Source: Herbiconiux gentiana (GTDB lineage Bacteria; Actinomycetota; Actinomycetes; Actinomycetales; Microbacteriaceae). From it: a stretch of 64,000 nt of DNA. The notes below the pieces were generated by a model. That model was not told where the DNA came from. It did no database searches and saw only the letters and a program-made list of their open reading frames with translations. Location: positions 496,001 through 560,000 of the forward strand of contig NZ_JANTEZ010000002.1 of NCBI RefSeq assembly GCF_024978135.1, given 5' to 3'. A program made the position numbers and the translations under genes. How positions within the stretch are numbered: the first letter of the stretch is position 1; each line of letters opens with the position of its first letter. This document shows, in pieces, positions 42,737 to 57,735 of this stretch.

Positions 42737-44245
42737 TCAGGCGGGCAGCGTCAGCACCCCGTCGACCCGGCGCGGGATGCCGATGAAGCCGTCGCGCAGC
42801 TCCTCGGGCAGCACCGCCTCGGGGGCGTTCTGCCAGGCGAGCGGCCGCAGGAACCGGCGCACCGCGGTGACCCCCACCGAGGTGTGCTGCGAATTCGTCG
42901 AGGGCCACGGGCCGCCGTGCTGCTGCGCCCAGGCCACCCGCACCCCGGTCGGGTAGCCGTTGAACACGACCCGCCCCGAGCTGGCCTCCAGGGTCGAGGC
43001 GAGCGAGGAGACGACGTCGGCCTCCTCGTCCTCGACGTGGAGCGTCGCGGTCAGCGAGCGCGGGATGCGGCCGAACGCCTCGCGCACCTCGTCGAGCGAG
43101 TCGTACCGGGCCACGACCACCAGCGGCCCGAAGGCCTCCTCGGCGAGCTCGGCGCCGAGACCGGCCGCCGTGGTCTCGAGCAGCTGCGGCGACACGGCGA
43201 AGCCGTCGTCGCCCGTGGGCGCCGAACCCGACGCCCCGACGACCGCTCCGGCCGCCACCAGCCGGTCGGCGATCTCGCCGAACGAGCTCTGGATGCGGTC
43301 GTTCAGAAGCACCTGCGGCGCGGCCGCCGCGGTGAGCGACTCGAGGGCGTCGACGACCGCCTGTCCCTCGGCTCCCGACGGCACGAAGGCGATGCCCGGC
43401 TTCGTGCAGAGCTGCCCCGCCGATCCCGTGTACGACGCGAACAGCCCGTCGGCGATGGCCGCACCACGGGCCGCGGCCGCCCCGGGCGACACGACGAGCG
43501 GGTTGATGCTCGACAGCTCGCCGAAGAACGGGATGGGGTCGGGCCGCTGGTCGATGGCCCGCTGCAGCGCCTCGGCGGCACCGAGCGATCCGGTGAAGCC
43601 GGCCGCCTTGATGGCGGGCTCCTGCACGAGGGTCACCCCGGCCTGCTGACCGTAGACGATGCCGAAGGTGCCGCGCGGGGCGCCCACCGACTCGGCGGCG
43701 CGCTGCAGCACCTCGAACGAGAGCTTCGAGGTGAGCGGGTGCGAGCCGTGCGCCTTGACGACCACCGGCGACCCGGCGGCGATCGCCGACGCCACGTCGC
43801 CCCCGAGCACCGAGAAGGCGAACGGGAAGTTGCTCGAGCCGAACACGGCCACCGGACCGATCGACACCAGCATGCGCCGCACGTCGGGTGCCGGGCCGAG
43901 CGGGGTGTCGCCCGCGTGGTCGATGGCCGCCTCCACGAAGGACCCTTCGCGCACGGCCTCGGCGAAGAGCGAGAACTGGAAGGCGCTGCGGCCGGCCTCC
44001 CCGGTCAGGCGTGCCGTGCCGAGCCCGGTCTCCGCGTCGGCGGTGGCCACGAGCTCGTCGCGGGCGGCCAGCACACCGGCGGCCATCGCGTCGAGCAGTC
44101 GCGCGCGGAACTCCCGGCCGCGCGACTGCAGCTCCTGGGCGGCGGCCTCGGCGCGCAGGGCGATCTCGTGCACCGCCTCGGGCGAGGTCGGTGCCAACGA
44201 GGTGGCAGCGCTAACACCTGTTCGGGGATCTGTCGTGGTGAGCAT
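42737..44245 (-). CDS. 2-oxoglutarate (alpha-ketoglutaric) semialdehyde dehydrogenase
   Basis: NAD(P)-dependent aldehyde dehydrogenase of 502 residues that would oxidise 2,5-dioxopentanoate to 2-oxoglutarate, the last step of the non-phosphorylative pentose pathway. Catalytic Glu243 is in FFGELSSINP and Cys280 in SAGQLCTKPG, the wording typical of the KGSADH branch (XylA of Caulobacter). ATG 44245 has AAGGAG five bases upstream. A copy of the locus palindrome falls inside codons 10-15, which is unusual. It follows the LacI gene by 31 bp and is the last gene of the leftward series. Confidence 0.9.
   Translation of the reverse strand: MLTTTDPRTGVSAATSLAPTSPEAVHEIALRAEAAAQELQSRGREFRARLLDAMAAGVLAARDELVATADAETGLGTARLTGEAGRSAFQFSLFAEAVREGSFVEAAIDHAGDTPLGPAPDVRRMLVSIGPVAVFGSSNFPFAFSVLGGDVASAIAAGSPVVVKAHGSHPLTSKLSFEVLQRAAESVGAPRGTFGIVYGQQAGVTLVQEPAIKAAGFTGSLGAAEALQRAIDQRPDPIPFFGELSSINPLVVSPGAAAARGAAIADGLFASYTGSAGQLCTKPGIAFVPSGAEGQAVVDALESLTAAAAPQVLLNDRIQSSFGEIADRLVAAGAVVGASGSAPTGDDGFAVSPQLLETTAAGLGAELAEEAFGPLVVVARYDSLDEVREAFGRIPRSLTATLHVEDEEADVVSSLASTLEASSGRVVFNGYPTGVRVAWAQQHGGPWPSTNSQHTSVGVTAVRRFLRPLAWQNAPEAVLPEELRDGFIGIPRRVDGVLTLPA
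44203..44216. promoter_or_regulatory. LacI-type operator inside the dehydrogenase coding region
   Basis: TGTTAGCGCTGCCA on the gene strand, identical over 14 bases to the site at 49875-49888. It lies 29-42 bases inside the reading frame, whose start is well supported by an AAGGAG. It could act as a roadblock site or as an auxiliary looping operator. Confidence 0.55.
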
Positions 44246-44276: not shown

Positions 44277-45332
44277 TCAGGCGCTCTCGCGCGCCATGAC
44301 CGAGAATCCGAGGTCGATCTCGGCGGTCTCGCGGGTGCTGCCGGTCATCCGGGCGAGCAGCAGTTCACCGGCGGCCGTGCCGATGCGGCGGTTGGGCACG
44401 GCGACGGTGGTGAGGGTCGGCACGAGGTGCCGGCTGATCTCGAAGTCGCCGAAGCCGGTGATGGCGATGTCGCCGGGCACCGAGACGCCGGCGCGGGCGC
44501 ACTCGAGCACGGCTCCCGCGGCGAAGACGTCGCTGGCGAACATCAGCACGTCGGTCTCCGGATGCGCGGCCCGCGTCTCGGCCAGCAGCCGCTGCCCGGT
44601 CGCGTAGTCGACGGTCGCGGTGCCGGAGTCGACGACCCGCACGGGCTCGCCCGGGAACAGCTCCCGCACCGACTCCTCGAAGCTCGCCCGCCGGGCGAGC
44701 GCGCGGAAGTCACCGGTCTGGAACGACCCCGCGAAGCTCGGGTGGCGATAGCCGCGCGAGCGCGCGAACTCCACCAGGGCCCGGATCGCGGCGCTGTTCG
44801 AGAACCCCACGACACTGTCGATGGGGGTGTCGGTGAGGTCCCAGGCCTCGACCACGGGCACCTTCGACTCCCGGAGCAGATGGCCCGTGTTGGGCGAGTG
44901 GTCGGTTCCGACGATGAAGATGCCGTCGGGGCGGCGGCCGAGGAAGGCCCGCACGAGCTCCTCCTCGTGGCCGGGCCGGTACGAGGTCGAGCCGATGAAG
45001 AGCTGATACCCCTCGGGGGCGAGCACCTCCTCGAGGCCCTGCAGGGCATCCGCGAACACCGAGGCCGAGACCGTCGGCACGATGGCCGCCACCGTCATGC
45101 TGCGGTTGGAGGCCAGGTTGGACGCCGCGAGGTTCGGCACGTAGCCGGTCTCGCTGATGGAGTTGCGCACACGCTCGAGCGTGAATTCGGAGACCAGCTG
45201 CGGGCTGCGGATGGAGCGGGAGACGGTCTGCGGCGACACCTGCGCGTGCCGCGCGACGTCTTCGAGGGTGACCGAGTGCGTCGAGCGGCGCGTGGGGCGC
45301 GTGACCAGTGCGGCGACGGCCCCGTCGCTCAC
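44277..45332 (-). CDS. LacI-family regulator of the pentose/CoA locus
   Basis: A repressor of 351 residues. The helix-turn-helix SVTLEDVARHAQVSPQTVSRSIRS lies near residues 19-42, the hinge SNLASNRSMTVAAIVPTV follows, and then the sensor domain (GFGDFEISRHLVPTLTTVAVP). It resembles the gluconate-repressor branch. GTG 45332 was chosen over the ATG 21 codons earlier because GTGA overlaps the stop of the XylX-like gene. It sits inside the catabolic series and is the natural candidate to bind the AGCGCT-centred palindromes at 44203, 49875 and 53959-53984, implying autoregulation (inference). Confidence 0.9.
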   Translation of the reverse strand: MSDGAVAALVTRPTRRSTHSVTLEDVARHAQVSPQTVSRSIRSPQLVSEFTLERVRNSISETGYVPNLAASNLASNRSMTVAAIVPTVSASVFADALQGLEEVLAPEGYQLFIGSTSYRPGHEEELVRAFLGRRPDGIFIVGTDHSPNTGHLLRESKVPVVEAWDLTDTPIDSVVGFSNSAAIRALVEFARSRGYRHPSFAGSFQTGDFRALARRASFEESVRELFPGEPVRVVDSGTATVDYATGQRLLAETRAAHPETDVLMFASDVFAAGAVLECARAGVSVPGDIAITGFGDFEISRHLVPTLTTVAVPNRRIGTAAGELLLARMTGSTRETAEIDLGFSVMARESA

Positions 45333-46546
45333 AGCAGCGCCCGGCTCGCGAGGTTCCTCATCAGCGAGCCGATCCCGAACTCCCACGGTTCGCACCTCTC
45401 GCTCGCCTCGACCTGGTTGACCAGACTACCGAGTCCGCTCGCCGAGATCCGCACGATGTCGCCGCGTTTGTGGGTGAAGCCCCGGTCGATGTCGTCGCGG
45501 TCGACGATGGGCGCGAACATCGTGCCGAGCATCAGAACGGCGCCGTCGGGGTAGCGGTGCTGAGGGCCCTCGAGCTGCGCCACGAGGTCGAGCGGGTCGC
45601 GGCTGATCTGGCTCATCTCCGAGGTGCCGTCGAGGTGGAAGCCGTCCTCGCCGTCGATCTCGAGCGTCACGCTCATGCTCCGCACGGCGTCCAGGTCGAA
45701 CGACTCGTCGAACAGGCGGATCAGGGGCCCGAGAGCGCAGGAGGCGTTGTTGTCCTTCGCCTTGGGCAGCAGCAGGGCCGAGCGGCCCTCGACGTCGCGC
45801 AGGTTCACGTCGTTGCCGAGGGTGGCGCCGACGATGCGGCCCGCGCGGTCGACGATCAGGGCGACCTCGGGCTCGGGGTTGTTCCAGAGCGAGGTCGAGA
45901 GCACCCCGACCCGGTCGGCCGTGCCCACCGCCGAGAGCGTCGGTCCCTTGGTGAAGATCTCGGCGTCGGGGCCGATGCCGACCTCGAGGTATTGGCTCCA
46001 GAGACCCTCGCCCACGAGGTACTCCTTCAGCGCCACGGCGGCCGGGGAGCCGGGTACGATCTCGTGCAGGTCGGCTCCGATCTGCTCCAGGATGCCCGCC
46101 CGCATCCGCGCGGCCGCCTCGACGTCGCCCCGCACCCGTTCCTCGATCACCCGCTCGATCATCGACACCGCGAACGTCACCCCCGCCGCCTTCAGGGTCT
46201 GCAGGTCGACCGGAGCGAGCAGCCAGGGCCGGTCGCGGTCCCGGTCGCCCGGAGCGGTGTTCGCGTAGATCTCCTCGAACGAGCCGAGCCGTGCGCCGCC
46301 CTCGCCCGCGGACCGCGCCGCCGCCGCCGGATCGGCCTCGTCGGCGAGGGCGCTGACCGTCGGGAACGTGGCGCTCAGGTCGACCACCCCGTCGGCCGTG
46401 ACGAGTACGGGCGAGGGGCCGTTCGCGGCCGGGTCCCAGACGCGGCCGACGAGCGTGCCGGCGGTGCCGTCGGCGGGGAGGGCCCGCGCGGCGGCGCCCG
46501 CCCAGTCGGTGCGCGGGTCGAGGGGGGTGGTGTCGGTGAGGCTCAT
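45329..46546 (-). CDS. FAH-family 2-keto-3-deoxy-pentonate dehydratase (XylX-like)
   Basis: A protein of 405 residues of the fumarylacetoacetate hydrolase superfamily, long form. LKAAGVTFAVSMIERVIEERVRGD, WSQYLEVGIGPDAEIFTKGP, WNNPEPEVALIVD, LGNDVNLRDVEGRSALLLPKAKDN and DGAVLMLGTMFAP match my recollection of XylX of Caulobacter, which dehydrates 2-keto-3-deoxyxylonate to 2,5-dioxopentanoate. The Glu residues of NNPEPE fit the divalent-metal site of the superfamily. The product would be the substrate of the dehydrogenase two genes on. GGAG lies seven bases before ATG 46546. Confidence 0.85.
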   Translation of the reverse strand: MSLTDTTPLDPRTDWAGAAARALPADGTAGTLVGRVWDPAANGPSPVLVTADGVVDLSATFPTVSALADEADPAAAARSAGEGGARLGSFEEIYANTAPGDRDRDRPWLLAPVDLQTLKAAGVTFAVSMIERVIEERVRGDVEAAARMRAGILEQIGADLHEIVPGSPAAVALKEYLVGEGLWSQYLEVGIGPDAEIFTKGPTLSAVGTADRVGVLSTSLWNNPEPEVALIVDRAGRIVGATLGNDVNLRDVEGRSALLLPKAKDNNASCALGPLIRLFDESFDLDAVRSMSVTLEIDGEDGFHLDGTSEMSQISRDPLDLVAQLEGPQHRYPDGAVLMLGTMFAPIVDRDDIDRGFTHKRGDIVRISASGLGSLVNQVEASERCEPWEFGIGSLMRNLASRALL

Positions 46547-46613: not shown

Positions 46614-47402
46614 TCAGCGCCGGTGGAAGACGCCGGCGCGCTTCTCGGCGAAGGCCGCGCGACCTTCCGCGGCGTCGTCGGTGGCGAAGGTCACGGTCTG
46701 CAGGTCGCGCTCGTAGGCGATCGCCGCATCCTGGGGCAGGTTGTAGGCGGCCCGCAGGTTGGCCTTCGCGGTCTCGGCCGCGATCGGCGGGCGCGAGGCG
46801 ATGGTGCGGCCGAGCTCGACGGCACGCTCGAGCAGGGCCTCCGGCGCCACGAGCTCCGAGACGAGTCCCCAGGCGAGCGCCCGCTCGGCGTCGATCGGAT
46901 CACCCGTCATCAGCATCAGCGCCGCGTTCGAGGCGCCGATCGAATGGGCGAGGAAGGTGCTCATACCCCCGCCGCCGATCCAGCCGAGCTTGATCTCGGG
47001 CGCGGCGAACGACGCCGTGGTCGACGCCAGCCGAATGTCGCAGGTCATCGCCGTCTCGAGCCCGCCCCCGAAGGCGTACCCGTTCACGGCCGCGATCACG
47101 GGCTTCCGCAGCAGCCGCAGGGCGTCGCAGTAATCCTCACGGTTGCGGAAGTCCCACGGCGTGGCGTACTTGTCGAGCGAGCGGATGTCCGAGCCGGCGC
47201 AGAAGGCGCGGTCCCCGGCCCCGGTCAGCACCAGCACGCGCACGTCGTCGCTCTCGTTCGCCCAGCCGGCGACCTCGACGAGCGCATCCGACATCTCCTG
47301 GGTGACGGAGTTGAGCTTCTGCGGGCGGTTCAGCGTGACGACGGCCACCTGGTCGACGAGCGCGACGACGATCTCGTCGGTGGCGGGCTTCGGAACGGTC
47401 AT
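46614..47402 (-). CDS. Enoyl-CoA hydratase/isomerase (crotonase family)
   Basis: Crotonase-fold enzyme of 262 residues acting on a CoA thioester. GDRAFCAGSDIRSLD and GYAFGGGLETAMTCDIRLAS form the oxyanion hole and active-site helix. Glu in FGGGLE is in the place of the first catalytic Glu of hydratases, while the second position reads APEIKLGWIGGGG. It is closest by eye to the carnitinyl-CoA/FadB-like branch; substrate unknown. It starts at ATG 47402, overlapping the binding-protein-like gene by four bases. In a sugar-acid locus it may hydrate or dehydrate a hydroxyacyl-CoA made by the CoA-transferase (inference). Confidence 0.88.
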   Translation of the reverse strand: MTVPKPATDEIVVALVDQVAVVTLNRPQKLNSVTQEMSDALVEVAGWANESDDVRVLVLTGAGDRAFCAGSDIRSLDKYATPWDFRNREDYCDALRLLRKPVIAAVNGYAFGGGLETAMTCDIRLASTTASFAAPEIKLGWIGGGGMSTFLAHSIGASNAALMLMTGDPIDAERALAWGLVSELVAPEALLERAVELGRTIASRPPIAAETAKANLRAAYNLPQDAAIAYERDLQTVTFATDDAAEGRAAFAEKRAGVFHRR

Positions 47403-48541
47403 GAGGCGACCCCTTCGGTTCGGCGGACGGAGCTGCGGAACGCGGAGCGCAGCCGCTCGAGCCCCTCGGCGACGGGCAGAGAGCCGGCCACGACCTCTCG
47501 CACGAGCGCCGACGCCGCCGTCTGGAACTCGATGTACCCGGCATAGCGCGGCCGCACCCAGGAGCCCTCGATTGTCGCGAGCGTCGAGCGGTAGAAGCCG
47601 GCCGCGGCGCGGTCGACGTCGGCGTCGGTCCAGGCCGAGCGGGCCGAGGGCTGGCCCGCGTGCCGGGGGATGAAATCGCGCTGGGTCTCCTCCGACAGAA
47701 GCCCCGCGATGTGCGCCACGAGCTCGGGGGTGACCTGCGCGCGGCGGCTGACCGCGAGGCCCGTGCCACCGATGGTCGAGCCGCGTCGGCCGCCGGGGAG
47801 GGCGGCGGGAGCATCCGCGAATCTCAGCACGGGCGAGGAGTAGGTGACGTAGCCATAGACGAGGGGGATGTAGGCGATCTCGTCGCTCGCCGTCATGCGT
47901 TCGAGCAGCGTGATGGGGTTCTGGGCCGCGCTGCCGGCGGGGGCGCGGTCGCCGATCGAGCGCAGGATGTTGAGGGCGAGCGAGCCGGTGATCTCGGAGA
48001 CGAACGGCAGCGCGGGGTCGTCGGCGATCGGATCGCCCAGCGCGGCGCAGATCGACGCGAAGCTGAGGAAGGCGTGCGGGCCGGCGAGCGACAGCGCGAC
48101 CGGCACCTCGGCCGCGAGGCGCTCCACCTCGGCCCAGGTCTCGGGTGCGGTGCCGCCCGGCACGAGGTCGCTGCGGAGCGCTGCGACCTGGGTGGCGGCG
48201 TCGAGGGGCAGCGCCCACTGCCGCCCGTTCAGGCGGTACGACTCGAACGAGGGCCCGACGGAGGCGCCCGCCCATCGCTCGAGCAGCTCGGGTCCGACGA
48301 CGTCCTCCATCGGCTGCAGCGAGCCGAGCTCGAGGGCCTCGCCGAGGTGCGGGTGGTCGAGCACGATCAGGTCGTAGTCGCGGGCGAGCTCGTCGATCGG
48401 ATGCGACTCGAAGTGCTCGAGCGAGTGCGCGTGCCAGTCGATCTCGACCGAGGCATCGGCCGCCGCGGCCGCCCGCAGCGCGTCGCGTCCGCGCGGGTGG
48501 TCCCAGGTGATGCCGCGGTAGGCGGGCGCCGCGCCGGTCAT
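47399..48541 (-). CDS. Signal-less extracellular-solute-binding-like protein coupled to CoA enzymes
   Basis: A protein of 380 residues resembling family 1 substrate-binding proteins: YRGITWDHPRGRDALRAAA, LIVLDHPHLGEALELGSLQPMED, QWALPLDAATQVAALRSDLV, GTGLAVSRRAQ and RPRYAGYIEFQTAASALVREV. Unlike those proteins it begins directly at the first beta strand (MTGAAPAYRGITWDHP), with no signal peptide or lipobox, so it should stay in the cytoplasm. It is translationally coupled on both sides (ATGA) to a CaiB-type CoA-transferase and an enoyl-CoA hydratase. A role as cytosolic sugar-acid binding or delivery subunit is speculative. Confidence 0.75.
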   Translation of the reverse strand: MTGAAPAYRGITWDHPRGRDALRAAAAADASVEIDWHAHSLEHFESHPIDELARDYDLIVLDHPHLGEALELGSLQPMEDVVGPELLERWAGASVGPSFESYRLNGRQWALPLDAATQVAALRSDLVPGGTAPETWAEVERLAAEVPVALSLAGPHAFLSFASICAALGDPIADDPALPFVSEITGSLALNILRSIGDRAPAGSAAQNPITLLERMTASDEIAYIPLVYGYVTYSSPVLRFADAPAALPGGRRGSTIGGTGLAVSRRAQVTPELVAHIAGLLSEETQRDFIPRHAGQPSARSAWTDADVDRAAAGFYRSTLATIEGSWVRPRYAGYIEFQTAASALVREVVAGSLPVAEGLERLRSAFRSSVRRTEGVAS

Positions 48542-49827
48542 GCCGGTTCCGCGACCGCGAGCGGTTCCGCGACCCCGACCGCCGCGGCCTCCGGCTCGGC
48601 CGCCACCACACCCGCGTCGAGCAGCGCGTCGACCCGGTCGGCCGGCAGCCCCAGCTCGCTCAAGATCTCGCGCGTGTGCTCCCCCGTGAGCGGCGCCCCG
48701 CGGTCGATCCGGGCGGGGGTCTCCGACAGCTTGTAGGGGAAGCCGGGGGTCTTCACGAGCCCCTCGGTCGGGTGCTCGTACTCGATGAAGGTGCCGTTGT
48801 GCTTGATCTGTTCGTCGTCGACGAGGTCCTGATAGCCGTAGACCGGGCCCGCCCAGATGCCGGCCGCCGAGAGCGCCTCGAGCCACTCGGCCGTCGAGCG
48901 CGTCGCCAGCCGCTCCGCCGTCTTGGCGTAGATCTCGTCGCGGTGGGTCCAGCTGTCGACCTCGGTGTCCATGCCGAGGAACCACTCCTCCTCGAGCACC
49001 TCACCGAGGGTGTGCAGATCCGGCATCGCGAGCGCGAGGTAGCCGTCGGTGGTGGAGAAGGTGCCGTAGGGCGCCCGGATGTAGACGTGCGCGTGCGGCT
49101 GCTCACTGCGGTGCTGCTCCACGCCGCCGACCGTGAAGACCGAGAGCTCCTGCATTTGCAGGGTGGTGATCGCGTCGAGCATGTTCACCGAGACGAGCTG
49201 CCCCTGCCCGGTGCGCTCGCGGTGGAACAGTGCGGCCAGCACGCCCTCGAACGCGGTCGAGGCGGTGACCGCGTCGACGAGGTACTGGCCGGCCGGGGTC
49301 GGCGGATGCCCGGCGGACCCCGAGGAGAGCATGGCCCCGCTCATCGCCTGCAGCAGCAGGTCCTGACCGGGGCGGTTGCGGTAGGGCCCGTCCTCGCCGT
49401 AGCCCGAGATCGAGACGTAGACGATCGAAGGGTTGATCTTCCGCAGCGTCTCGTAGTCGACGCCGAGCCGGGCGGCGACGCCGGGGCGGTAGTTCTGCAG
49501 GAAGACGTCGGCGGTCTTCACGAGCTCGTAGAGGATCTCGCGCCCCTCGTCGGCCTTCAGGTCGACCCCGATCGAGCGCTTGTTGCGGTTCAGCGACAGG
49601 AACGAGACGTTGATGCGGTTGCCGGTGGCTCCACCCGCCGCCGCGTGCCGCTGCCACTCCCCGCGGGTCGGCTCGACCTTGATCACGTCGGCTCCGAGGT
49701 CGCCGAGGCGCTGCGCCGCGAAGGGCCCCGCCATGGCGATCGAGCAGTCGAGCACCCGGATGCCCGAGAGCACCTCGGGGGCCGAAGCGGTCGCCGGTGC
49801 GGGAGCGGGGGGCGTGGTGTCGGTCAT
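48538..49827 (-). CDS. CaiB/BaiF-family (class III) CoA-transferase
   Basis: Enzyme of 429 residues transferring CoA between carboxylic acids. LSGIRVLDCSIAMAGPFAAQRLGDLGADVIKVE is the family start. NRNKRSIGVDLKADEGREIL, YVSISGYGEDGPYRNRPGQDLLLQAMSG with the nucleophilic Asp156, and AGPVYGYQDLVDDEQIKHNG follow. It is full length apart from an extra Ala/Val/Pro-rich C-terminal tail (about 30 residues). GAGGAG precedes ATG 49827. It is first gene of the CoA trio, directly downstream of an AGCGCT operator. The acceptor is unknown; neighbours suggest a hydroxy or sugar acid rather than carnitine. Confidence 0.9.
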   Translation of the reverse strand: MTDTTPPAPAPATASAPEVLSGIRVLDCSIAMAGPFAAQRLGDLGADVIKVEPTRGEWQRHAAAGGATGNRINVSFLSLNRNKRSIGVDLKADEGREILYELVKTADVFLQNYRPGVAARLGVDYETLRKINPSIVYVSISGYGEDGPYRNRPGQDLLLQAMSGAMLSSGSAGHPPTPAGQYLVDAVTASTAFEGVLAALFHRERTGQGQLVSVNMLDAITTLQMQELSVFTVGGVEQHRSEQPHAHVYIRAPYGTFSTTDGYLALAMPDLHTLGEVLEEEWFLGMDTEVDSWTHRDEIYAKTAERLATRSTAEWLEALSAAGIWAGPVYGYQDLVDDEQIKHNGTFIEYEHPTEGLVKTPGFPYKLSETPARIDRGAPLTGEHTREILSELGLPADRVDALLDAGVVAAEPEAAAVGVAEPLAVAEPA

Positions 49828-49874: not shown

Positions 49875-49888
49875 TGGCAGCGCTAACA
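49875..49888. promoter_or_regulatory. LacI-type operator upstream of the CoA-transferase
   Basis: TGTTAGCGCTGCCA on the gene strand, 47 bp before ATG 49827 and overlapping a possible TATGTT or TAGTCT -10 element. Core AGCGCT with TG/CA ends, as in LacI-family operators. The 100-bp gap it sits in marks the start of a second leftward transcript. Confidence 0.7.
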
Positions 49889-49927: not shown

Positions 49928-51064
49928 CTACTCGGGCTGACCGGCGATCGCGCGGATCGCCTCGACCGAGGCCCGCGTCTCGGCCTCACCGTCGAGCACC
50001 CGCACGATGGTGGAGTACTCGCGCCGCTCGCCGTGCTCCAGCCAGACCATCGACCCGTTCTCGCGGGCGGCCGCGTCGCCGTCGACGTGATGGGTCGAGG
50101 GCTCGAGGCCCACGGCGTACTGACCGCTGCGCAGGTTCTGCCACTCGAAGAAGTGCGGCATGCCCTCGCTCGACCAGCTCACCTCGACCCCGCGGGAGTC
50201 GTCGGCGGCGATCAGCGCCACGCGGTGCCGACCGTCGGCACCCGCCACGAGCTCGTGCTCGAAGACCTGCTCGACGAAGCCCGGCTGCGGCGCCGGCAGC
50301 GTGCGGTACGACACACCCTGCTCGGCCACGGAGTCGGAGGACCAGAGCGTCTTGGCGATCGGGGCCACGAGCCGGGTGCCCTCGTCGACGAAGGGCCAGC
50401 CGATGTTGAGGTGGTAGAGGAACATGTGCGGCGTGCGCTCGAAGCCGAGGTTCTCGACCACGTCGTGCCAGCGGATCTCTCGCCCCGTGAAGTCGAGCTC
50501 GACCGTGCGGGTGAGCTTGAGGTGCTCGCCGAAGGAGGTCGCCTGCACCACCTCGCCGACCACCCGCAGCACCGAGTCGCCGGTCTCGGGGTCGACGATC
50601 TCGCGCGCCTCCAGCAGTCGGGCCGGGATGGCGGTGAGCCGGCCGTGCAGGCCGTGCGAGACGCTCTGCTTGGGCGGGTAGGCGTAGTGCTCGGCGCCGA
50701 CCTCGCCGCCGAAGAGCGTGTGGTCGAGGCCGCCCGTGACGAGCAGCCCGTCGAGCGCCCGGAGCCACGACAGCCCGCCCTCGTCACTGTGCTCGTGCAG
50801 GCCGGGGTGCCGGAAGCCGTTGCCCGAGCGCCACCCGAACGGCGTGCCGCGCAGGCGCGCCGAGCCGAAGTCGAAGGCCCGGTCAACAAGTACCTCCAGC
50901 TCGAGGCCCGCGGCGGTGCGCAGCTGCAGGGCACGCACCCCGCGTTCGACGCCGTCGTCGAGCACCACCGAGCGGATGCCCGCCACCGCCGACAGGTCAC
51001 CCGTGCGCTCCTCCAGCTCACGCCGGCTCAGCTGCTGCCCGAAGATCTCCACCGTGTTCCTCAT
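49928..51064 (-). CDS. DUF4432-family aldose-1-epimerase-like protein
   Basis: A protein of 378 residues with the galactose-mutarotase beta-sandwich fold. LEVLVDRAFDFGSARLRGTPFGWRS, GLLVTGGLDHTLFGG, HGLHGRLTAIPA, FLYHLNIGWPFVDEGTRL and VGLEPSTHHVDG are DUF4432 features, including conserved His and Glu residues expected to act on a sugar ring. It probably speeds anomer interconversion of the imported sugar before oxidation. ATG 51064 overlaps the SDR stop by four bases. Last gene of the leftward dehydrogenase unit. Confidence 0.82.
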   Translation of the reverse strand: MRNTVEIFGQQLSRRELEERTGDLSAVAGIRSVVLDDGVERGVRALQLRTAAGLELEVLVDRAFDFGSARLRGTPFGWRSGNGFRHPGLHEHSDEGGLSWLRALDGLLVTGGLDHTLFGGEVGAEHYAYPPKQSVSHGLHGRLTAIPARLLEAREIVDPETGDSVLRVVGEVVQATSFGEHLKLTRTVELDFTGREIRWHDVVENLGFERTPHMFLYHLNIGWPFVDEGTRLVAPIAKTLWSSDSVAEQGVSYRTLPAPQPGFVEQVFEHELVAGADGRHRVALIAADDSRGVEVSWSSEGMPHFFEWQNLRSGQYAVGLEPSTHHVDGDAAARENGSMVWLEHGERREYSTIVRVLDGEAETRASVEAIRAIAGQPE

Positions 51065-51810
51065 TCCATGATCCAGCCGCCGTCGACGTTGATGGTCTGA
51101 CCCGTGACGAACGACGAGTCGGGGCCCACCAGGAACGAGATGACGGCCGCCAGCTCGGCGTCGCTCCCCCGGCGCTTCAGCGCCTGATGCGCGATGACGT
51201 GCGCCGAGTATTCTGCGGCGTCGCCCTGGATCTCCTCGGCCTTCGTCGGGAAGGCCCCCGGCGAGACCGCGTTGACCCGCACGCCGTGCTCGCCGAGTTC
51301 GCGGGCGAGCGCCCGGGTGAGGGCGACCGCGGCCCCCTTCGTCGAGATGTAGCTCGCGAGGTTCGACCAGCCGCCGTGCCAGGTGATGCTGCCGACGTTC
51401 ACGATCGCGCCGGAGCGCCGGGCGACCATCCCCCGGGCGGCGACCTGCGCCGCGTAGAAGTAGCCGCGCTGGTTCACCGTCACGACGTCGTCGTACTCGG
51501 CGAGCGGGATGTCGAGAAAGGGCGTGCTCGGGTAGATGGCCGCGTTGTTGATCAGAGCCTCGACGGGGCCGAAGTCCCGTTCGGTGTCGGCGACGGCCGC
51601 CTCGATGGCGCCGGAGTCGCGCAAGTCGACCTCGAGCATCCGCACCGCGACCCCCTCGGCCTCGAGCTGCGCCGCGGTCTCGGCCAGCTCGCCGCTCGCC
51701 CGGCCGAGCGCGCCGATGGCGAAGCCGTCGGCTCCCAGCCTCAGCGCCGTCGCCCGGCCGAGCGCGCCGCCCGCGCCCGTGATGATCGCTACCTTCTCCT
51801 GCACGTGCAT
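51061..51810 (-). CDS. Short-chain dehydrogenase/reductase
   Basis: NAD(P)-dependent oxidoreductase of 249 residues, classical SDR. Cofactor motif TGAGGALG is at residues 11-18, NNA near 88-90, and catalytic S141, Y154 and K158 (YISTK); the C-terminus FVTGQTINVDGGW is conserved. The start is either ATG 51810 or GTG two codons later; the latter has the better-spaced GAGAGG. Likely oxidises a sugar or sugar acid in the pathway, since sugar dehydrogenases of Weimberg-type routes are often SDRs. Confidence 0.9.
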   Translation of the reverse strand: MHVQEKVAIITGAGGALGRATALRLGADGFAIGALGRASGELAETAAQLEAEGVAVRMLEVDLRDSGAIEAAVADTERDFGPVEALINNAAIYPSTPFLDIPLAEYDDVVTVNQRGYFYAAQVAARGMVARRSGAIVNVGSITWHGGWSNLASYISTKGAAVALTRALARELGEHGVRVNAVSPGAFPTKAEEIQGDAAEYSAHVIAHQALKRRGSDAELAAVISFLVGPDSSFVTGQTINVDGGWIME

Positions 51811-51853: not shown

Positions 51854-52768
51854 TCAGATGTTGTACTTCTTGAGCGTATCGACGACGAACTGCTTGGCCC
51901 GCGGGATGTCGCTCTCGTCGAGGTGCTCGATGATCAGCGGCGCGTTCGGGTTCTGCTCGCTGAGGCGTTGCAGGTACAGGTCGTAGTCGAGCGAGCCGAG
52001 GCCGGCGGCCGGCAGCTCGATCTCGCCGACACCGCGGAAGGTGTGCGACGCGAGAGCGTCGTCGTCGCCGATGTCGGCGTGCTTCTCGCTCTTGTCGTCG
52101 CCCGCTCGCTTGACGTCCTTGGCGTGCGCGACACGCACCCGGTCGCCGAGCACGTCGAAGACCTCGTTCAGCACGCCGGCCTGGTCGTCGATGTTCGACG
52201 CGTCGAAGTAGTTCGTCGGGTCCATCAGCAGCTCGAGGCCCGGGGTGCGGATGTCGTTGAACACGCGGGCGGTCTCGCGCACCGATCCGATCACGTTGTT
52301 CACGTAGGTCTCCAACAGGAAGGTCGCGCCGTGGTCGTAGGCGGTCTGGGCCAGTTCGGCGAGCACCGTGCGCACCTGCTCGTAGGCGTCCTCGGAGCGG
52401 TTGTGCGGGTCGTGGTCCCACTCGCTCTCGGCGTTGAAGGTGCCCGACTCGGAGATGACGTACTTCGAGCCGAAGTTGCGCGCGTTGCGGATGATCTCCT
52501 TCAGGTACTCGACGTTCGCCTTCCGGTGCTCGGGGTCGGGATGCACGATGTTCGTGTAGCCCGAGATGGCCGAGATCGGCAGGTCGTGGTCGCGGAAGGT
52601 GTCGCTGACGAGCTTCGCCTTCTCCTTGGTGATCTGGCCCGCGCTCAGGTCGAGGTCCTTGAAGTGCAGGTCGAGCTGCACGGTGTTGAAGCCGTGCGCG
52701 CGGATCTTCTCCGCGGTGGTCTTGAGGTCGTAGGGGTAGTAGGCGGTGAAGATGCCGAGCTGGATCAT
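51854..52768 (-). CDS. Sugar phosphate isomerase/epimerase family protein (AP-endonuclease-2-like TIM barrel)
   Basis: A protein of 304 residues. IQLGIFTAYYPYDLKTTAEKIRAHGFNTVQLDLHF opens the barrel. Metal ligands are expected at Glu in LLETYVNN, Asp in LLMDPTNYFD, His in VRVAHAKDV and Glu in LIIEHLDES. The family includes sugar epimerases, IolE-type dehydratases and 3-keto-glycoside-processing enzymes, so the reaction cannot be fixed. Its place next to a Gfo/Idh dehydrogenase is typical of routes that isomerise or eliminate from an oxidised sugar. Confidence 0.85.
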   Translation of the reverse strand: MIQLGIFTAYYPYDLKTTAEKIRAHGFNTVQLDLHFKDLDLSAGQITKEKAKLVSDTFRDHDLPISAISGYTNIVHPDPEHRKANVEYLKEIIRNARNFGSKYVISESGTFNAESEWDHDPHNRSEDAYEQVRTVLAELAQTAYDHGATFLLETYVNNVIGSVRETARVFNDIRTPGLELLMDPTNYFDASNIDDQAGVLNEVFDVLGDRVRVAHAKDVKRAGDDKSEKHADIGDDDALASHTFRGVGEIELPAAGLGSLDYDLYLQRLSEQNPNAPLIIEHLDESDIPRAKQFVVDTLKKYNI

Positions 52769-52817: not shown

Positions 52818-53897
52818 TCAGAGGGAGAACTCGTCGAGGCGCACCGGGCGCTTCTCGGCGATCGAGCGGTAGCCGGCCTCGATCAGCGCCATGGTGCGCA
52901 CGTTGTCGGCGACGCTGAGCTCGGGGTCGGTGTCGGTGTCGACGGCGTGCTGCACCTGCTCCATCACGCCGATGAAGGCGTGCGGGAACCAGTGCGTGTC
53001 CCAGCTCGGCTCCACCCACTGGCCGCCGGTGGCGTGGGTAGAGGCGTAGCGGATGCTCGACGGCACCCCGTGCGGCCAGCCGATGGTGCCCTGCGCGATG
53101 CCCGCGGTGCCCTCCACCCGCCAGCGGATGAAGAAGTCGTCGTCGAAGCCCTCCTCGCGGGGGCCGCCCCAGACGTCCTCGACGCTGAGCGCCAGCACGT
53201 CGCCCGGGAAGCGCAGCGTCGACACGACGATGCCGTCCTCGTGCTCGAAGGTCGTACGCGGGTCGCGCCGGGTCACGGTGGAGATCTCGGACGGGTCGCC
53301 GAACAGGAAGCGCAGCGCGTCGAGGTGGTGCACGCTCATGTTCGCCAGGGTCAGCCGGTCGTAGCCCGCGAGGAAGCCCTGCCAGTGCGGCACGGCGTGC
53401 ATGTCGATCTGGGCGAAGACCGGGTCGCCGAGCACACCGTCGTCGAGCAGCTGCTTCAGCACCCGGATCGACTGGTCGTAGCGCATGTTCTGGTTGACGC
53501 TCAGGATCGTGCCCGCCGCGGCGGCCTCGTCGCGCAGGGCGATCGCCTCCTCGAGGTCGAGGGCCAGCGGCTTCTGCGCGAGCACCGCCTTGATGTGCGG
53601 CTGCGCCAGGGCGGCCCGGATGATCGCCGGCTGCTGGTCGGGCGGGTACGCGATGTCGAGGATCTCGACGTCGGTGTCGGCGAGCAGCTGCTCGACCGTG
53701 TCGTGCACGGTGGGGATGCCGTAGCGCTCCGCCACCGCCCGGGCGTTCGCGGCGGTGCGGGAGGCGATGGCGACCACGGGGAAGCCGGCCTGGCGGTAGG
53801 CCTCCAGGTGCTGATCGGCCATGATCGCGCCGGCTCCCACGCAGCCGATGCGGTGGCTGCGGCTGCGGATGTCGACATCCGGTTGCAGAGCTGTCAC
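52818..53897 (-). CDS. Gfo/Idh/MocA-family oxidoreductase
   Basis: NAD(P)-dependent sugar or polyol dehydrogenase of 359 residues. Rossmann motif IGCVGAGAIMADQHLEAYRQAGF is at about residues 17-39. The usual EKP reads AQKPLAL, and NMSVHHLDALRFLFG provides the catalytic-site His. GTG 53897 has AGGAG eight bases upstream. First gene of the leftward unit, divergent from the CUT2 importer with a double operator between, so it most likely performs the first oxidation of the imported sugar (inference). Confidence 0.9.
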   Translation of the reverse strand: MTALQPDVDIRSRSHRIGCVGAGAIMADQHLEAYRQAGFPVVAIASRTAANARAVAERYGIPTVHDTVEQLLADTDVEILDIAYPPDQQPAIIRAALAQPHIKAVLAQKPLALDLEEAIALRDEAAAAGTILSVNQNMRYDQSIRVLKQLLDDGVLGDPVFAQIDMHAVPHWQGFLAGYDRLTLANMSVHHLDALRFLFGDPSEISTVTRRDPRTTFEHEDGIVVSTLRFPGDVLALSVEDVWGGPREEGFDDDFFIRWRVEGTAGIAQGTIGWPHGVPSSIRYASTHATGGQWVEPSWDTHWFPHAFIGVMEQVQHAVDTDTDPELSVADNVRTMALIEAGYRSIAEKRPVRLDEFSL

Positions 53898-53958: not shown

Positions 53959-53984
53959 TGCTAGCGCTACTGGCAGCGCTGCCA
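53959..53984. promoter_or_regulatory. Double LacI-type operator in the divergent dehydrogenase/importer promoter
   Basis: TGCTAGCGCTACTG is followed, overlapping by two bases, by the perfect palindrome TGGCAGCGCTGCCA (53971-53984). The AGCGCT cores are exactly 12 bp apart. It is placed between the dehydrogenase GTG (53897) and the binding-protein ATG (54043). Confidence 0.75.
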
Positions 53985-54042
53985 TTTATCGGCTAGTGTG
54001 CCGACCACACCTTGCACCACCGGCGATTTCAAAGGAGAAATC

Positions 54043-55125
54043 ATGCAGCGATCCATACACGCCCACCGTCTCGCGAGAGGCGCCGCCGTTCTCGCGGCCG
54101 CCTCGTCGCTCGCTCTCGTCGCCGGCTGCACCAGTGCACCGGCCGAGGGCGGCGGCACCGATTCCGCCGGCGGCGACGGAAAATTCGTCATCGGCTTCGA
54201 GCAGCCGCTCGGCGGCCAGGCCTGGCGAGAGATGGGCCTGGCCTCCCTGCAGGCCCTCGCCAACTCGCCCGAGTACAAGGACAAGGTCGAGGTCAAGATC
54301 GTCCGCACCAACGACAACGACGCGGCCCAGCAGAACGCGGCGATGCAGAACCTGATCGCCGACGGCGTCGACCTGATCCTGTTCGACCCGGCCTCCTCCT
54401 CGGGCGCCGACGCCGCGATCACCCAGGCGACGGCCCAGGGCATCCCGGTCATCGCCAACGGCGGACCGTACGACAGCGACGACGTCTACGTCGTGTCGAC
54501 CGACTGGGCGAACGCCGGCACGATCGGCGCCGACTGGCTGCTGAAGAACCTCGGCACCGACAAGAACATCGCGGTGCTCGAGGGCCTCGCGGGTGTTCCG
54601 CTGAACGAGGGCACGATGCCCGGCGTGCTCGAGACGCTCGAGGGCGGCGGCGCGACCGTCGTGGCCCAGGACACCAACGGCTGGAACGAGGCGACCGCCC
54701 AGGAGGCGATGTCGAACATCCTGCGCTCCAACCCCGACGTCGGCGGCGTCTACTCCTTCCTCACCGGAGGCCAGGGCGTGCCCGAGGCGTTCAAGGCCGC
54801 AGGCCTGCCGTTCGTGCCGGTCGTCGGCGGCTCCGGCTACAACGGCGAGGCGTGCACCCTCGCGGAGTACGCCCCCGAGGGGCTCAAGGGGAACATGGTC
54901 TTCGGCCAGCCCGCGATCTACGCGAAGGGCCTCGAGCAGGCCGTCGCGCTGCTCGAGGGCCAGGAGATCGAGAAGGAGCAGTACTTCCCGCCGCTGGAGA
55001 TCACCGAGGACAACGCGGCCGACTACTGCCTCGCCGACAAGCCGAACAACTTCCAGCTCGGCTACGACTTCCCGGGCCTCGACCTGACGCTCGACGACGT
55101 CATGACCTACTACTCGGGCTCGTAG
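54043..55125 (+). CDS. Sugar ABC transporter substrate-binding lipoprotein (CUT2, RbsB type)
   Basis: Secreted lipoprotein of 360 residues. The signal peptide ends in a lipobox (ALVAGC, Cys29). The mature protein is a periplasmic-binding type 1 fold (KFVIGFEQPLGGQAWREMGLASLQ, AAMQNLIADGVDLILFDPASSSGADAAITQATAQGIPV, WNEATAQEAMSNILRSNPDVGGVY). ATG 54043 has AAAGGAGA upstream and starts the signal peptide; earlier codons do not. First gene of the importer, under the double operator. CUT2 systems carry monosaccharides, in keeping with a pentose. Confidence 0.92.
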   Translation: MQRSIHAHRLARGAAVLAAASSLALVAGCTSAPAEGGGTDSAGGDGKFVIGFEQPLGGQAWREMGLASLQALANSPEYKDKVEVKIVRTNDNDAAQQNAAMQNLIADGVDLILFDPASSSGADAAITQATAQGIPVIANGGPYDSDDVYVVSTDWANAGTIGADWLLKNLGTDKNIAVLEGLAGVPLNEGTMPGVLETLEGGGATVVAQDTNGWNEATAQEAMSNILRSNPDVGGVYSFLTGGQGVPEAFKAAGLPFVPVVGGSGYNGEACTLAEYAPEGLKGNMVFGQPAIYAKGLEQAVALLEGQEIEKEQYFPPLEITEDNAADYCLADKPNNFQLGYDFPGLDLTLDDVMTYYSGS

Positions 55126-55135
55126 GAGGGCATCC

Positions 55136-56656
55136 GTGACCGACTCCGGCACTCCCCTGCTCGTCGCCACCGACCTGGTGAAGAGCTACGGCCCGGTCAA
55201 GGCCGTGCAGGGGGTCACCTTCCACTGCAACCCCGGCGAGGTGCTGGCCCTGGTCGGCGAGAACGGCGCGGGCAAGAGCACCGTCGCCAAGATGCTCGCC
55301 GGAGCGGTCACCCCCACCTCCGGCAGCATCATCGTCGGCGGCGAGCCGCTCGCGTCGGGCAGCGTGAAGCAGTCGCGCCTCTCCGGCGTCCGCTGCGCCT
55401 TCCAGGAGCTCGCCCTCGTGCCCGACTGGACCGTGGCCGAGAACCTCTCCCTTCCCGACGGCGCTCCGCTGCGCGGGTTCTCGCAGAAGAGGTCGATGGC
55501 GGCAGCATCCGCTCTGCTGACGGCCTTCGACCTCCCGCACATCGACCCGCGCGCCGCCGTGGGCACCCTGTCGCTCGCCGACCGGCAGCTGGTGGAGATC
55601 GCCCGCGCCCTCGCCGGCGAGCCCCGCCTGCTCATCCTCGACGAAGCCTCCTCCGCCCTCACTCCGCCCGGCGTGCAGTGGCTGTTCACGCGCATCCGGG
55701 AGCTCACCGCCGCCGGCGGCAGCGTGATCTACGTCTCGCACCGCCTGGGCGAGATCGCCGAGATCGCCGACCGGGGCACTGTGCTGCGCGACGGCCAGGT
55801 GGCCGGGGAGTTCGTGCGCGGCGGCTGGACCGACGACGAACTCATTTCGCTGATGGCCGGTCGCGAAGCCGAGCGCTTCTTCCCCGACCCGCCCGAGCGA
55901 GCCACGGATGCGGTGGCCCTGTCGGTCACCGAGCTCCGTTCCGAGGGCCTCGACGGCGTCAGCCTCACGCTCGGTGCCGGCGAGATCCTCGGCATCGGCG
56001 GGCTGCAGGGCCACGGCCAGGCCGAGCTGCTGCGCGCCCTGTTCGGCGCCGCCCCCGCGGCGGCCGAGGAGTGGACGGTCGCGGGTCGACGCATCAAGAC
56101 CACCACCCCCGTGCGCTCCGTGCGCCACGGCCTCGGCTACGTTCCCGAGGACCGCAAACGCGAGGGCCTGGCCCTCGAGATGAGCGTCGGCGAGAACCTG
56201 CTCGCCCCCTGGTTGAAGGGCTACCAGCTCGGTGGGCGACCCCGCCTGGCGATGGAGCGAGGCTGGATCGACGGCATCCTGAGCGCCCTCTCGGTTCGCA
56301 CCCGCGGCTCGAACGAGCTGGCCGGGTCGCTCTCGGGCGGCAACCAGCAGAAGCTCGTGTTCGGTCGCTGGATGGACCGCTCGCGCACGGTCATCCTGCT
56401 GCACGACCCCACCCGCGGCATCGACGTGCGGGCGAAGCAAGAGCTCTACGGGGCGATCGTCGACCTCGCGAAGCAGGGGGTCGGCATCCTGTGGTTCTCC
56501 ACCGAGGTGGAGGAACTCGTGCACGTCTGCCACCGGGTGATCGTGCTCTACCAGGGCACGGTGGCCGACGAGCTCACCGGCTCGCGTCTGACCGCGGACG
56601 CGATCGTCGGCGCCGCGGTCGGCTCCACGGGCTCCATCACCCTCACCACCGACTAG
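55136..56656 (+). CDS. Sugar ABC transporter ATPase with two nucleotide-binding domains (RbsA/XylG type)
   Basis: Tandem ATPase of 506 residues. The first domain has Walker A GENGAGKST and an ABC signature reading TLSLADRQLVEIARAL instead of LSGGQ. The second has a degenerate Walker A (GGLQGHGQAELL) but a good signature LSGGNQQKLVFGRW and DPTRGID, the usual asymmetry of CUT2 ATPases. GTG 55136 follows AGGAGG. Ten bases separate it from the binding-protein stop. Confidence 0.94.
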   Translation: MTDSGTPLLVATDLVKSYGPVKAVQGVTFHCNPGEVLALVGENGAGKSTVAKMLAGAVTPTSGSIIVGGEPLASGSVKQSRLSGVRCAFQELALVPDWTVAENLSLPDGAPLRGFSQKRSMAAASALLTAFDLPHIDPRAAVGTLSLADRQLVEIARALAGEPRLLILDEASSALTPPGVQWLFTRIRELTAAGGSVIYVSHRLGEIAEIADRGTVLRDGQVAGEFVRGGWTDDELISLMAGREAERFFPDPPERATDAVALSVTELRSEGLDGVSLTLGAGEILGIGGLQGHGQAELLRALFGAAPAAAEEWTVAGRRIKTTTPVRSVRHGLGYVPEDRKREGLALEMSVGENLLAPWLKGYQLGGRPRLAMERGWIDGILSALSVRTRGSNELAGSLSGGNQQKLVFGRWMDRSRTVILLHDPTRGIDVRAKQELYGAIVDLAKQGVGILWFSTEVEELVHVCHRVIVLYQGTVADELTGSRLTADAIVGAAVGSTGSITLTTD

Positions 56657-56667
56657 GAGGATCTCCG

Positions 56668-57735
56668 ATGACCGCCATCTCCCCACCGAGCACGCCGGCC
56701 GTGCCGGGCACACCGCCTCAGTCTCCGCCTCCGCCCCCGTCTTCGCGGCGATCGCGGCTCCGCGGCTGGAACAGCACCGGGGTCACCCGCCTGCGCCGCG
56801 AGGGCGCCATCGCGCCGATCGCCGCCTTCGTGGTGTTCTTCGTGGTCTACGTCATCATCAACCCCGAGCTGCTCACGCGGTTCCAGCTGCAGACGGCGTC
56901 GAACCTCGTGGTGCCGCTCGCGCTGGTGGCCCTCGGGCAGCTGGTGGTGGTGCTCGTGGGCGGCATCGACATCTCGATCGGCGCCATCATGAGCCTCTGC
57001 AACGTGGTGTTCGCCACGCAGCTGCTCACCCTGCCGGTGCCCGTGGCGATCCTGCTCGCGGTGCTGGTGGGGCTCGGATGCGGACTGTTCAACGGGTTCC
57101 TCGTCGCGTACGCCGGGTTGCCGGCCATCGCGGTCACCCTGGCGAGCGCCTTCATCTTCGGGTCGCTCGCCCGCGAGGTGCTCGACCGGCCGGGCGGCGG
57201 CGTGACGAAGGAGATCTACCTCGCCACCAGCGGCGAGCTGCTCCCCTTCGTGCCGGTGGCGCTGGTATGGCTCGCCGCGATCGCCGTCGGGCTGTGGCTG
57301 CTGCTGCAGCGCACGGCGCTCGGCCGGCACATCTACGGGGTGGGATCGAACATGGAGAGCGTGCGGGCCGCGGGCATCAACGCCCGGCTCACCAAGCTGC
57401 TCGCCTTCGGACTGGCCGGCGTGCTCACCTCGTTCGGCGCCATGATGCTCGCCTCCTCGACCGTCACGGGCGACCCGCGCTCGGGCGACCCGTACCTCCT
57501 GTCGTCGATCGCCGCCGTGGCCCTCGCGGGCGCCGCCTTCACCGGTGGGCGCGGCAGCATCATCGGCACCATCCTGGCGGCCTGCACCCTGGGGCTGATC
57601 GGCAACCTGCTGTTCTTCGCCGGGGTCAACTCGTACTGGCAGTACGTCATCAGCGCACTGATCATCGTGGCGGTCGTGGGGCTGCCCGTCGTGTGGCGCA
57701 GAGTCGCGTTCCGCGTGAAGGGAATCCGTTCATGA
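56668..57735 (+). CDS. Sugar ABC transporter permease (CUT2), first copy
   Basis: Permease of 355 residues. A 50-residue cytoplasmic Pro/Ser-rich start is followed by 8-10 TM helices. VVVLVGGIDISIGAIMSLCNVVFA is the RbsC-type GGIDLSVG motif, and ALAGAAFTGGRGSIIGT the later conserved loop. AGGAGG precedes ATG 56668. It overlaps the second permease by four bases, so the channel is probably a heterodimer, less common than the RbsC homodimer. Confidence 0.93.
   Translation: MTAISPPSTPAVPGTPPQSPPPPPSSRRSRLRGWNSTGVTRLRREGAIAPIAAFVVFFVVYVIINPELLTRFQLQTASNLVVPLALVALGQLVVVLVGGIDISIGAIMSLCNVVFATQLLTLPVPVAILLAVLVGLGCGLFNGFLVAYAGLPAIAVTLASAFIFGSLAREVLDRPGGGVTKEIYLATSGELLPFVPVALVWLAAIAVGLWLLLQRTALGRHIYGVGSNMESVRAAGINARLTKLLAFGLAGVLTSFGAMMLASSTVTGDPRSGDPYLLSSIAAVALAGAAFTGGRGSIIGTILAACTLGLIGNLLFFAGVNSYWQYVISALIIVAVVGLPVVWRRVAFRVKGIRS

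Follow-up and report, generated by a model that had tools for sequence, protein, structure and literature searches.

Within a 64,000-nucleotide stretch of the genome of Herbiconiux gentiana, called here the window (NCBI RefSeq assembly GCF_024978135.1, contig NZ_JANTEZ010000002.1, positions 496,001 to 560,000), three consecutive genes of the minus strand encode a CaiB-type class III coenzyme A (CoA) transferase, a protein built like a MalE-type solute-binding protein (SBP) but without a signal peptide and presumably intracellular, and an enoyl-CoA hydratase of the crotonase superfamily. The middle, binding-like gene and its product are named SBPc in what follows. The inheritance, in bacteria of soil and plants, of an export-less binding protein together with two CoA enzymes, often in sugar clusters, suggests an undescribed route of sugar-acid breakdown. 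The genes of CaiB (48538..49827, 429 amino acids), SBPc (47399..48541, 380 amino acids) and the crotonase (46614..47402, 262 amino acids) overlap by 4 bases at 48538-48541 and 47399-47402, in agreement with the outer limits and the overlaps given in an earlier note made from the letters of this DNA; such overlaps are by themselves an ordinary feature of bacterial operons.

The three proteins each fall within known families. CaiB carries a CoA_transf_3 domain over its full length (PF02515, 1.8e-109, positions 1-366 of 366) and an aspartate, Asp185, which we take to be the catalytic one; an Asp lies opposite it in PDB 9br7, and it is kept in 70/70 SBPc-partnered CaiBs. The crotonase has an ECH_1 domain (PF00378, 9.4e-62) and, in 31/31 aligned sequences, Glu116 and Glu136, presumably the two catalytic glutamates. 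The alignment rows behind these counts, as well as those behind the SBPc residue conservation and the distance correlations given below, are tblastn pieces. Seven NCBIfam models match CaiB, which stays under the cut-off of every one, including the L-carnitine CoA-transferase model NF002914 (156.6 bits, cut-off 413), so that it is not assigned to that equivalog; none of the 25 models shown, of 73 matching the crotonase, reaches its cut-off, and no NCBIfam model matches SBPc at E <= 0.01.

The family was studied in 71 loci, which comprise 48 of the 49 Microbacteriaceae matches at >= 100 bits (the excluded one, G054, is split over three contigs), one locus from an even draw of the phylum and all 22 Pseudomonadota loci; 20 ordinary binding-protein loci, taken from the weak matches of the phylum draw and scored with the same marker library, served as controls. 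Taken alone, the SBPc of the window gives only sub-threshold Pfam matches to SBP families (SBP_bac_8, 7e-4); SBP_bac_8 is matched at E <= 0.01 by 24 of 29 aligned family members (best 1.2e-14). The predicted fold is that of a complete two-lobe MalE-type binding protein whose first strand covers residues 7-13, which agrees with the earlier observation that the gene has an SBP fold pattern and starts at the first beta strand. The lack of a signal peptide, and the prospect that homologues with normal ones would reveal a mis-set start, had also been raised there. By a rule of our own, based on charge plus an 11-residue hydrophobic stretch rather than on a trained predictor, a signal-like N-terminus is found in 1/71 SBPc homologues (L180, borderline) versus 18/20 control binding proteins, and a mis-set start or a hidden signal peptide is rejected on this ground. 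Moreover, the start position is fixed by the 4-base overlap, which is possible in 43/50 adjacent CaiB>SBPc pairs (and in 21/23 SBPc>crotonase pairs). Since the defining export signal was tested for and is absent, SBPc is not classed as a transporter protein despite its ABC binding-protein fold. Several public annotations of SBPc proteins say 'extracellular', which the sequence evidence contradicts.

Over the 71 homologues, 35 positions of SBPc are conserved at >= 95%, and W13, R17, W36, D62, H63, P64, Y102, D114, Q297, W304 and R330 are invariant in 71/71; at the places of H63 and D114 the exported proteins 1eu8 and LpqY, when aligned, have different residues. Judged by alignment to these two proteins and by known contacts of their relatives, the invariant positions may line the cleft. 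The residue that follows the LGG motif is Thr in 41 and Ala in 30 of the 71; the absence there of a sugar-stacking Trp was considered as a hallmark of SBPc and dropped, the printed control motifs having no Trp at this place either. A natural SBPc-CaiB fusion was not noticed, although no systematic search for fusions was made.

The association of SBPc with the two CoA enzymes, which the earlier note had proposed to seek across genomes, proved to be widespread. Markers were located by tblastn in 19-kb stretches; the library came from seven plasmid loci besides the window, and genes without a label are uncounted. A CaiB gene lies <= 400 bp from SBPc in 60/71 loci (42/49 actinobacterial, 18/22 proteobacterial) versus 0/20 controls; at <= 5 kb the counts rise to 48/49 and 19/22, the remaining three proteobacterial CaiBs lying at ~6.4 kb, and at <= 6.5 kb 70/71 SBPc loci have one, compared with 0/20 controls at any distance within the stretch. 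Likewise, a CoA hydratase is present at <= 5 kb in 65/71 SBPc loci (46/49 actinobacterial, 19/22 proteobacterial) versus 0/20 controls, one of which has a MaoC at 6.0 kb. The identity of the hydratase varies: in Actinomycetota it is a crotonase in 22/24 clade 1 loci and a MaoC in 22/24 clade 2 loci, a crotonase again in L118, which represents a third kind of actinobacterial locus, and a MaoC in place of the crotonase even inside clade 1 (L097, L164 and Streptomyces ITFR-6). Crotonase and MaoC have unrelated folds. Their alternation gives the best indication that what is conserved is the addition of water to a CoA thioester or its removal.

CaiBs are generally abundant in Microbacteriaceae (237/299 genomes), so that the dependence is one-way: SBPc comes with a CaiB, but a CaiB need not come with SBPc. 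In a tree of 73 CaiBs, one branch (97/92; 98% of 200 bootstrap trees) parts 37 SBPc-partnered members, three of which (L230, L231, L234) lie ~6.4 kb from their own SBPc, from 36 unpartnered ones. The latter are 20 + 16 sequences picked from the rows of two CaiB searches, other rows being excluded, and 'unpartnered' means that no SBPc match stands beside them in the Microbacteriaceae and Pseudomonadota searches, the surroundings having been read for four. Furthermore, SBPc and CaiB distances correlate over 70 loci (r 0.86). The marker controls (20 loci) and the CaiB tree reject the possibility that the genes are chance neighbours and, by the measure of these comparisons, the SBPc-CaiB-hydratase association is old and specific.

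The four unpartnered CaiBs closest to the partnered clade (L233, L235, L241 and L242; surroundings L245-L248) have no SBPc profile match at E < 1 nearby, among frames >= 80 amino acids, and may mark the state before SBPc joined; three of these four loci are near sugar-type genes (SDR, ribose-type ABC transporter, MR/MLE). A second binding-protein-like family without signal peptide, SBPd, with an N-terminus of the type LRIAxRxFGPFExAI, was found at L253:15433-16665, L254:3420-4607 (minus strand), L173:14770-15927 and L176:14993-16165, with a weaker match (36%) at L106:11279-12448. The loci L253, L254, L173 and L176 each hold two CaiBs, and the SBPc profile does not match SBPd in L253 and L254.

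SBPc is found at >= 100 bits in 47/299 Microbacteriaceae genomes and at E <= 0.001 in 56/299, the remainder being weak; in the even draw of the phylum its scores are either >= 404 bits (3/296 genomes) or <= 54.2 bits. It occurs at E <= 1e-20 in 18/398 Pseudomonadota genomes and in 145 of 72,556 plasmid records, 90 of them from Sinorhizobium, and one of the plasmid loci read is from Bacteroidota (Persicobacter), so that the family is kept in Actinomycetota, Pseudomonadota and Bacteroidota. Carriers include plant-associated bacteria, such as Microbacteriaceae, rhizobia, Azospirillum and Streptomyces. The SBPc of Herbiconiux sp. VKM Ac-1786 is 88% identical to that of the window, and the labelled neighbours are 93-99% identical. 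The 3.85-Mb genome of the window holds two SBPc genes and two CaiB matches, each CaiB adjoining one SBPc. The second copy belongs to a clade 2 locus (L081, contig C11, 480000-499000) with CaiB, SBPc and MaoC; neither the spread of the family nor this second branch had been noticed in the earlier note. The genes of L081 are accompanied by an enolase-superfamily gene, an amidohydrolase, a LacI gene, an alcohol dehydrogenase, a binding protein and a permease gene. On pSymB of Sinorhizobium meliloti 1021 (L046:10830-11900) the CaiB gene adjacent to SBPc seems out of frame near its end, unlike in S. meliloti ABS7, where a CaiB of 1161 bases is annotated.

The genes around the trio bear out the claim that it sits in a sugar locus. 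Downstream, on the minus strand, lie a protein of the FAH family resembling a 2-keto-3-deoxypentonate (KDP) dehydratase (45329..46546; PDB 9kkt, an FAH family protein, 2.5e-126), which also matches the 2-keto-3-deoxy-D-arabinonate dehydratase 2q18 at 5e-21; a LacI-family regulator closest to the gluconate-type GntR (44277..45395; 304.9 bits against NF052440, under the cut-off of 400); and an aldehyde dehydrogenase (42737..44245; PDB 1eyy 1.2e-99, 3v4c 2.2e-95), perhaps of the ketoglutarate-semialdehyde type. Upstream, on the same strand, follow a DUF4432 protein similar to aldose-1-epimerases (49928..51064; PDB 3ty1, 8.8e-19), an SDR dehydrogenase (51061..51810), a xylose-isomerase-like TIM-barrel protein (51854..52768; PF01261, 2.1e-27) and a Gfo/Idh/MocA oxidoreductase (52818..53897). 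A sugar-type ABC transporter is encoded on the plus strand (53998..58784) by an exported lipoprotein-type SBP (53998-55125), whose N-terminus ends in LVAGC, an ATPase (55136-56656) and two permeases of approximate limits, outside the Pfam scan, with an RbsC-like match. Transporters are often near SBPc, and that of the window has an exported SBP of its own. No dehydratase gene of the MR/MLE or IlvD/EDD type is present in the window, where the UxaA type was not searched for. The locus is adjoined by a large subtilase (39209-42676) with S8, inhibitor I9, PA, fn3 and PPC domains and, at its C-terminus, a LANTG-like motif, a hydrophobic stretch and a basic tail.

A LacI-like operator, TGTTAGCGCTGCCA, precedes CaiB (49875..49888, minus strand); a second copy stands at the 5' end of the aldehyde dehydrogenase (44203..44216, minus strand) and a third in the gap that separates the Gfo/Idh/MocA gene from those of the ABC transporter (53971..53984). 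The 14-base pattern TGKYAGCGCTRMCA has 3 matches in the window, a number reached in 0/100 shuffles, and the 3.85-Mb genome has no match beyond these three, which all belong to this locus; the reversed control pattern has one forward and one reverse match in the genome. The same number of sites recurs in relatives, at L005, L082 (on the contig that also carries L006), L083 and L084. Because the sites are shared, the trio is probably co-regulated with the sugar transporter, and we infer that the regulator acting on them is the LacI-family gene of the locus. Since one copy falls inside the listed frame of the aldehyde dehydrogenase, the true start of this gene is probably downstream of 44203-44216, further in than listed.

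A sugar-acid enzyme marker is found within 6 kb in 45/49 actinobacterial SBPc loci versus 2/20 controls. Several clade 2 loci have an L-rhamnose mutarotase and two plasmid loci an alpha-L-fucosidase. No link was made between the S. meliloti clade 2 locus and a known inducer, since the L-fucose and L-rhamnose proteins of this organism belong to SMc-numbered genes according to PMC3454389. Seventeen annotated plasmid loci, picked from the 145 records for variety and annotation (an eighteenth is unannotated), were read from an incomplete gene table, in which acyl-CoA dehydrogenase is found in 0/17 and thiolase in 1/17, within a cluster on the opposite strand; a locus for fatty or branched acyl-CoA is not the picture in the annotated loci. 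The thiolase cluster, which also has an AMP-binding enzyme, is that of Roseibium. On a plasmid of Methylobacterium nodulans (L256:8330-12726) MaoC, CaiB, SBPc and an AMP-binding enzyme follow one another, with PdxA and a four-carbon acid sugar kinase close by.

Taken together, these data make it likely that a sugar-derived acid is processed by the trio in the form of its CoA thioester. A full scheme, in which the trio is a conserved CoA-thioester module working as a CaiB/CaiD-like cycle with SBPc as the partner of CaiB, is offered tentatively, at a little short of an even chance. According to this scheme, SBPc, a former exported sugar-binding protein kept in the cytosol, would bind the free sugar acid and partner CaiB, which would shift CoA from the product thioester to the acid, the CoA being recycled without ATP. 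The crotonase, elsewhere MaoC, would dehydrate the aldonyl-CoA across C2-C3 to an enol giving 2-keto-3-deoxyacyl-CoA, and the 2-keto-3-deoxy acid would be released by CaiB. By analogy with their homologues, the FAH protein would then dehydrate this acid to a semialdehyde and the aldehyde dehydrogenase would convert the latter to 2-oxoglutarate. The trio would thus fill the sugar-acid dehydratase step in the window, where no MR/MLE or IlvD/EDD gene is present. The broader statement, that a sugar-binding protein re-tasked inside the cell delivers the substrate as a subunit of the CoA-transferase and that, in three phyla or more, sugar acids lose water as CoA thioesters in a CoA cycle with either hydratase fold, is possible and somewhat less secure.

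Several observations weigh against this scheme, chief among them the many loci in which a classical dehydratase accompanies the trio. This is so in clade 1 type B and in clade 2, where an MR/MLE or L-fuconate dehydratase stands beside it, so that for these branches an absent dehydratase is not explanation enough for the trio. In the genome of the window, 9 MR/MLE matches and one IlvD/EDD match lie elsewhere, no UxaA-type search having been made there. The earlier note would have given up its reading had SBPc homologues carried normal signal peptides, or had the trio been found mostly outside sugar loci and active on fatty or branched acyl-CoA; so far as sequence can show, neither condition refutes it. 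The high count of sugar-acid markers given above for the actinobacterial loci is, however, not reached in the proteobacterial ones, of which only 8/22 have such a marker within 6 kb (14/22 anywhere in the 19-kb stretch). The invariant SBPc residues stay the same even where the loci seem to serve different sugars; as far as the alignments go, a partner surface or a common group would explain this no less well than a sugar acid. At L100, SBPc is without a CaiB. Of the 38 best MaoC matches, only 30 show the D-x4-H motif expected in MaoC hydratases, and most of the rest resemble a different type of MaoC. In the CaiB tree, the joining of clade 3 to clade 1 drew a warning from the program as a possible long-branch artefact. 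Finally, over the 24 loci of clade 1 the distance correlations are 0.87 for SBPc-CaiB, 0.85 for CaiB-FAH and 0.78 for SBPc-FAH, and because those involving FAH are similar, shared ancestry explains much of the SBPc-CaiB correlation. The processing of a sugar-derived acid as a CoA thioester, as first put forward for this locus, is partly supported: the CoA chemistry is backed by the invariant catalytic residues and the crotonase/MaoC alternation, and both the sugar acid as substrate of CaiB and the role of SBPc as carrier or subunit, as opposed to enzyme or sensor, are putative.

Other explanations of the same data were weighed. SBPc could itself be an enzyme, a lyase, isomerase or epimerase that works in sequence with CaiB and the hydratase, with either the sugar acid or its CoA thioester as substrate. 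Enzymes with an SBP fold exist, for example cyclohexadienyl dehydratase and MqnA/MqnD, and polar residues (R17, D62, H63, D114, Q297, R330) are among the 35 conserved positions; however, the full two-lobe MalE-type fold appears to be retained in the prediction, and the known SBP-fold enzymes belong to other SBP clusters, which leaves this explanation unlikely, at somewhat better than one chance in five. Hardly different in standing is the proposal that the trio degrades, via CoA, a second acid travelling with the sugar (for instance an acyl decoration, or a hydroxy acid split off, such as lactate or glycolate), the sugar acid being left to the neighbours. The classical dehydratases next to the trio, in type B of clade 1 and in clade 2, speak for it, together with the TRAP transporter genes of L008, L010 = L174, L172 and L179, a D-lactate dehydrogenase in one locus and an AMP-binding enzyme in another; the near absence of acyl-CoA dehydrogenase and thiolase from the annotated plasmid loci and the window without an MR/MLE or IlvD/EDD dehydratase speak against it, and we give it about one chance in five.

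SBPc might instead serve inside the cell as a sensor or buffer, either by sequestering a reactive acid or by regulating CaiB, and stay out of the catalysis itself; this is improbable, though worth weighing: a binding fold without export signal would suit this role, and the Pfam scan found no DNA-binding domain in SBPc, but its near-constant pairing with one CaiB clade and the translational coupling point to a stoichiometric role, and the locus already has a LacI-family gene. SBPc shares the fold of exported sugar-binding proteins, which would suit a transporter protein in decay or wrongly annotated, whether left over or exported by way of a missed start; this is very improbable in view of the signal-like N-termini (1/71 versus 18/20), the invariant residues and the maintenance of the gene in three phyla.

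If the CoA-thioester scheme with SBPc as the partner of CaiB is true, we know of no earlier case of a CoA-cycle dehydration that involves a binding protein inside the cell, and many plant-associated bacteria would be concerned; it would also show directly that a binding protein of transporters became an enzyme partner in the cytosol, and the presence of SBPd in loci with a second CaiB would make the export-less binding protein with CaiB a general design. No paper on a CaiB-SBPc-hydratase gene set was found among the open-access listings read.

Among the closest known systems is the carnitine-crotonobetaine cycle of CaiB/CaiD, in which a class III CoA-transferase works with a hydratase/dehydratase of the crotonase family and CoA can pass from product to substrate. 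The trio pairs the same two types of enzymes; unlike CaiB/CaiD, which is not known to have a binding-protein partner, it has SBPc, a probable sugar regulon and, sometimes, MaoC. CaiB is of the same family as the formyl-CoA:oxalate and succinate-hydroxymethylglutarate CoA-transferases (PDB 9br7, 6.3e-63; 1p5h, 1.5e-45), with the catalytic Asp kept, and differs from them in remaining below the thresholds of all 7 NCBIfam models that it matches. Unlike MalE-type binding proteins such as LpqY, SmoF and the trehalose/maltose binding protein, SBPc has no signal peptide and sits with CaiB; its H63 and D114 differ from 1eu8 and LpqY, and the locus of the window has a separate exported binding protein.

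Textbook non-phosphorylative sugar-acid routes work on free acids with dehydratases such as MR/MLE or IlvD/EDD. One of them, Route II of Herbaspirillum huttiense, leads from pentonate through KDP and ketoglutarate semialdehyde to 2-oxoglutarate, and its FAH-superfamily proteins C785_RS13680 and C785_RS13710, likened here by family to the FAH protein of the window, convert KDP to ketoglutarate semialdehyde (PMC6336799). By sequence match the window may share with this route the FAH-family KDP-dehydratase-like and aldehyde dehydrogenase genes; unlike Route II, in whose paper 'CoA' is absent from the main text, the window has a CoA module and no MR/MLE or IlvD/EDD dehydratase (PMC6336799). The view of the earlier note that no characterised pathway has this composition stands for the gene set as far as the open-access listings go, whereas CoA esters of sugar acids had already been proposed with other enzymes: in Klebsiella michiganensis, deoxyribonate would be handled as CoA esters by a cluster with a CoA-synthetase, a beta-hydroxyacyl-CoA dehydrogenase, a thiolase and a CoA-transferase (PMC6365646). 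The CoA branch is not without precedent for this reason. The likeness would lie in the sugar acid carried as a CoA thioester and in the CoA-transferase of the cluster, and the difference in that the main text of the paper has neither 'solute-binding' nor 'enoyl-CoA' and the trio has SBPc with crotonase or MaoC (PMC6365646); as far as that text goes, the deoxyribonate pathway is a precedent for the chemistry and not for the gene set of the trio.

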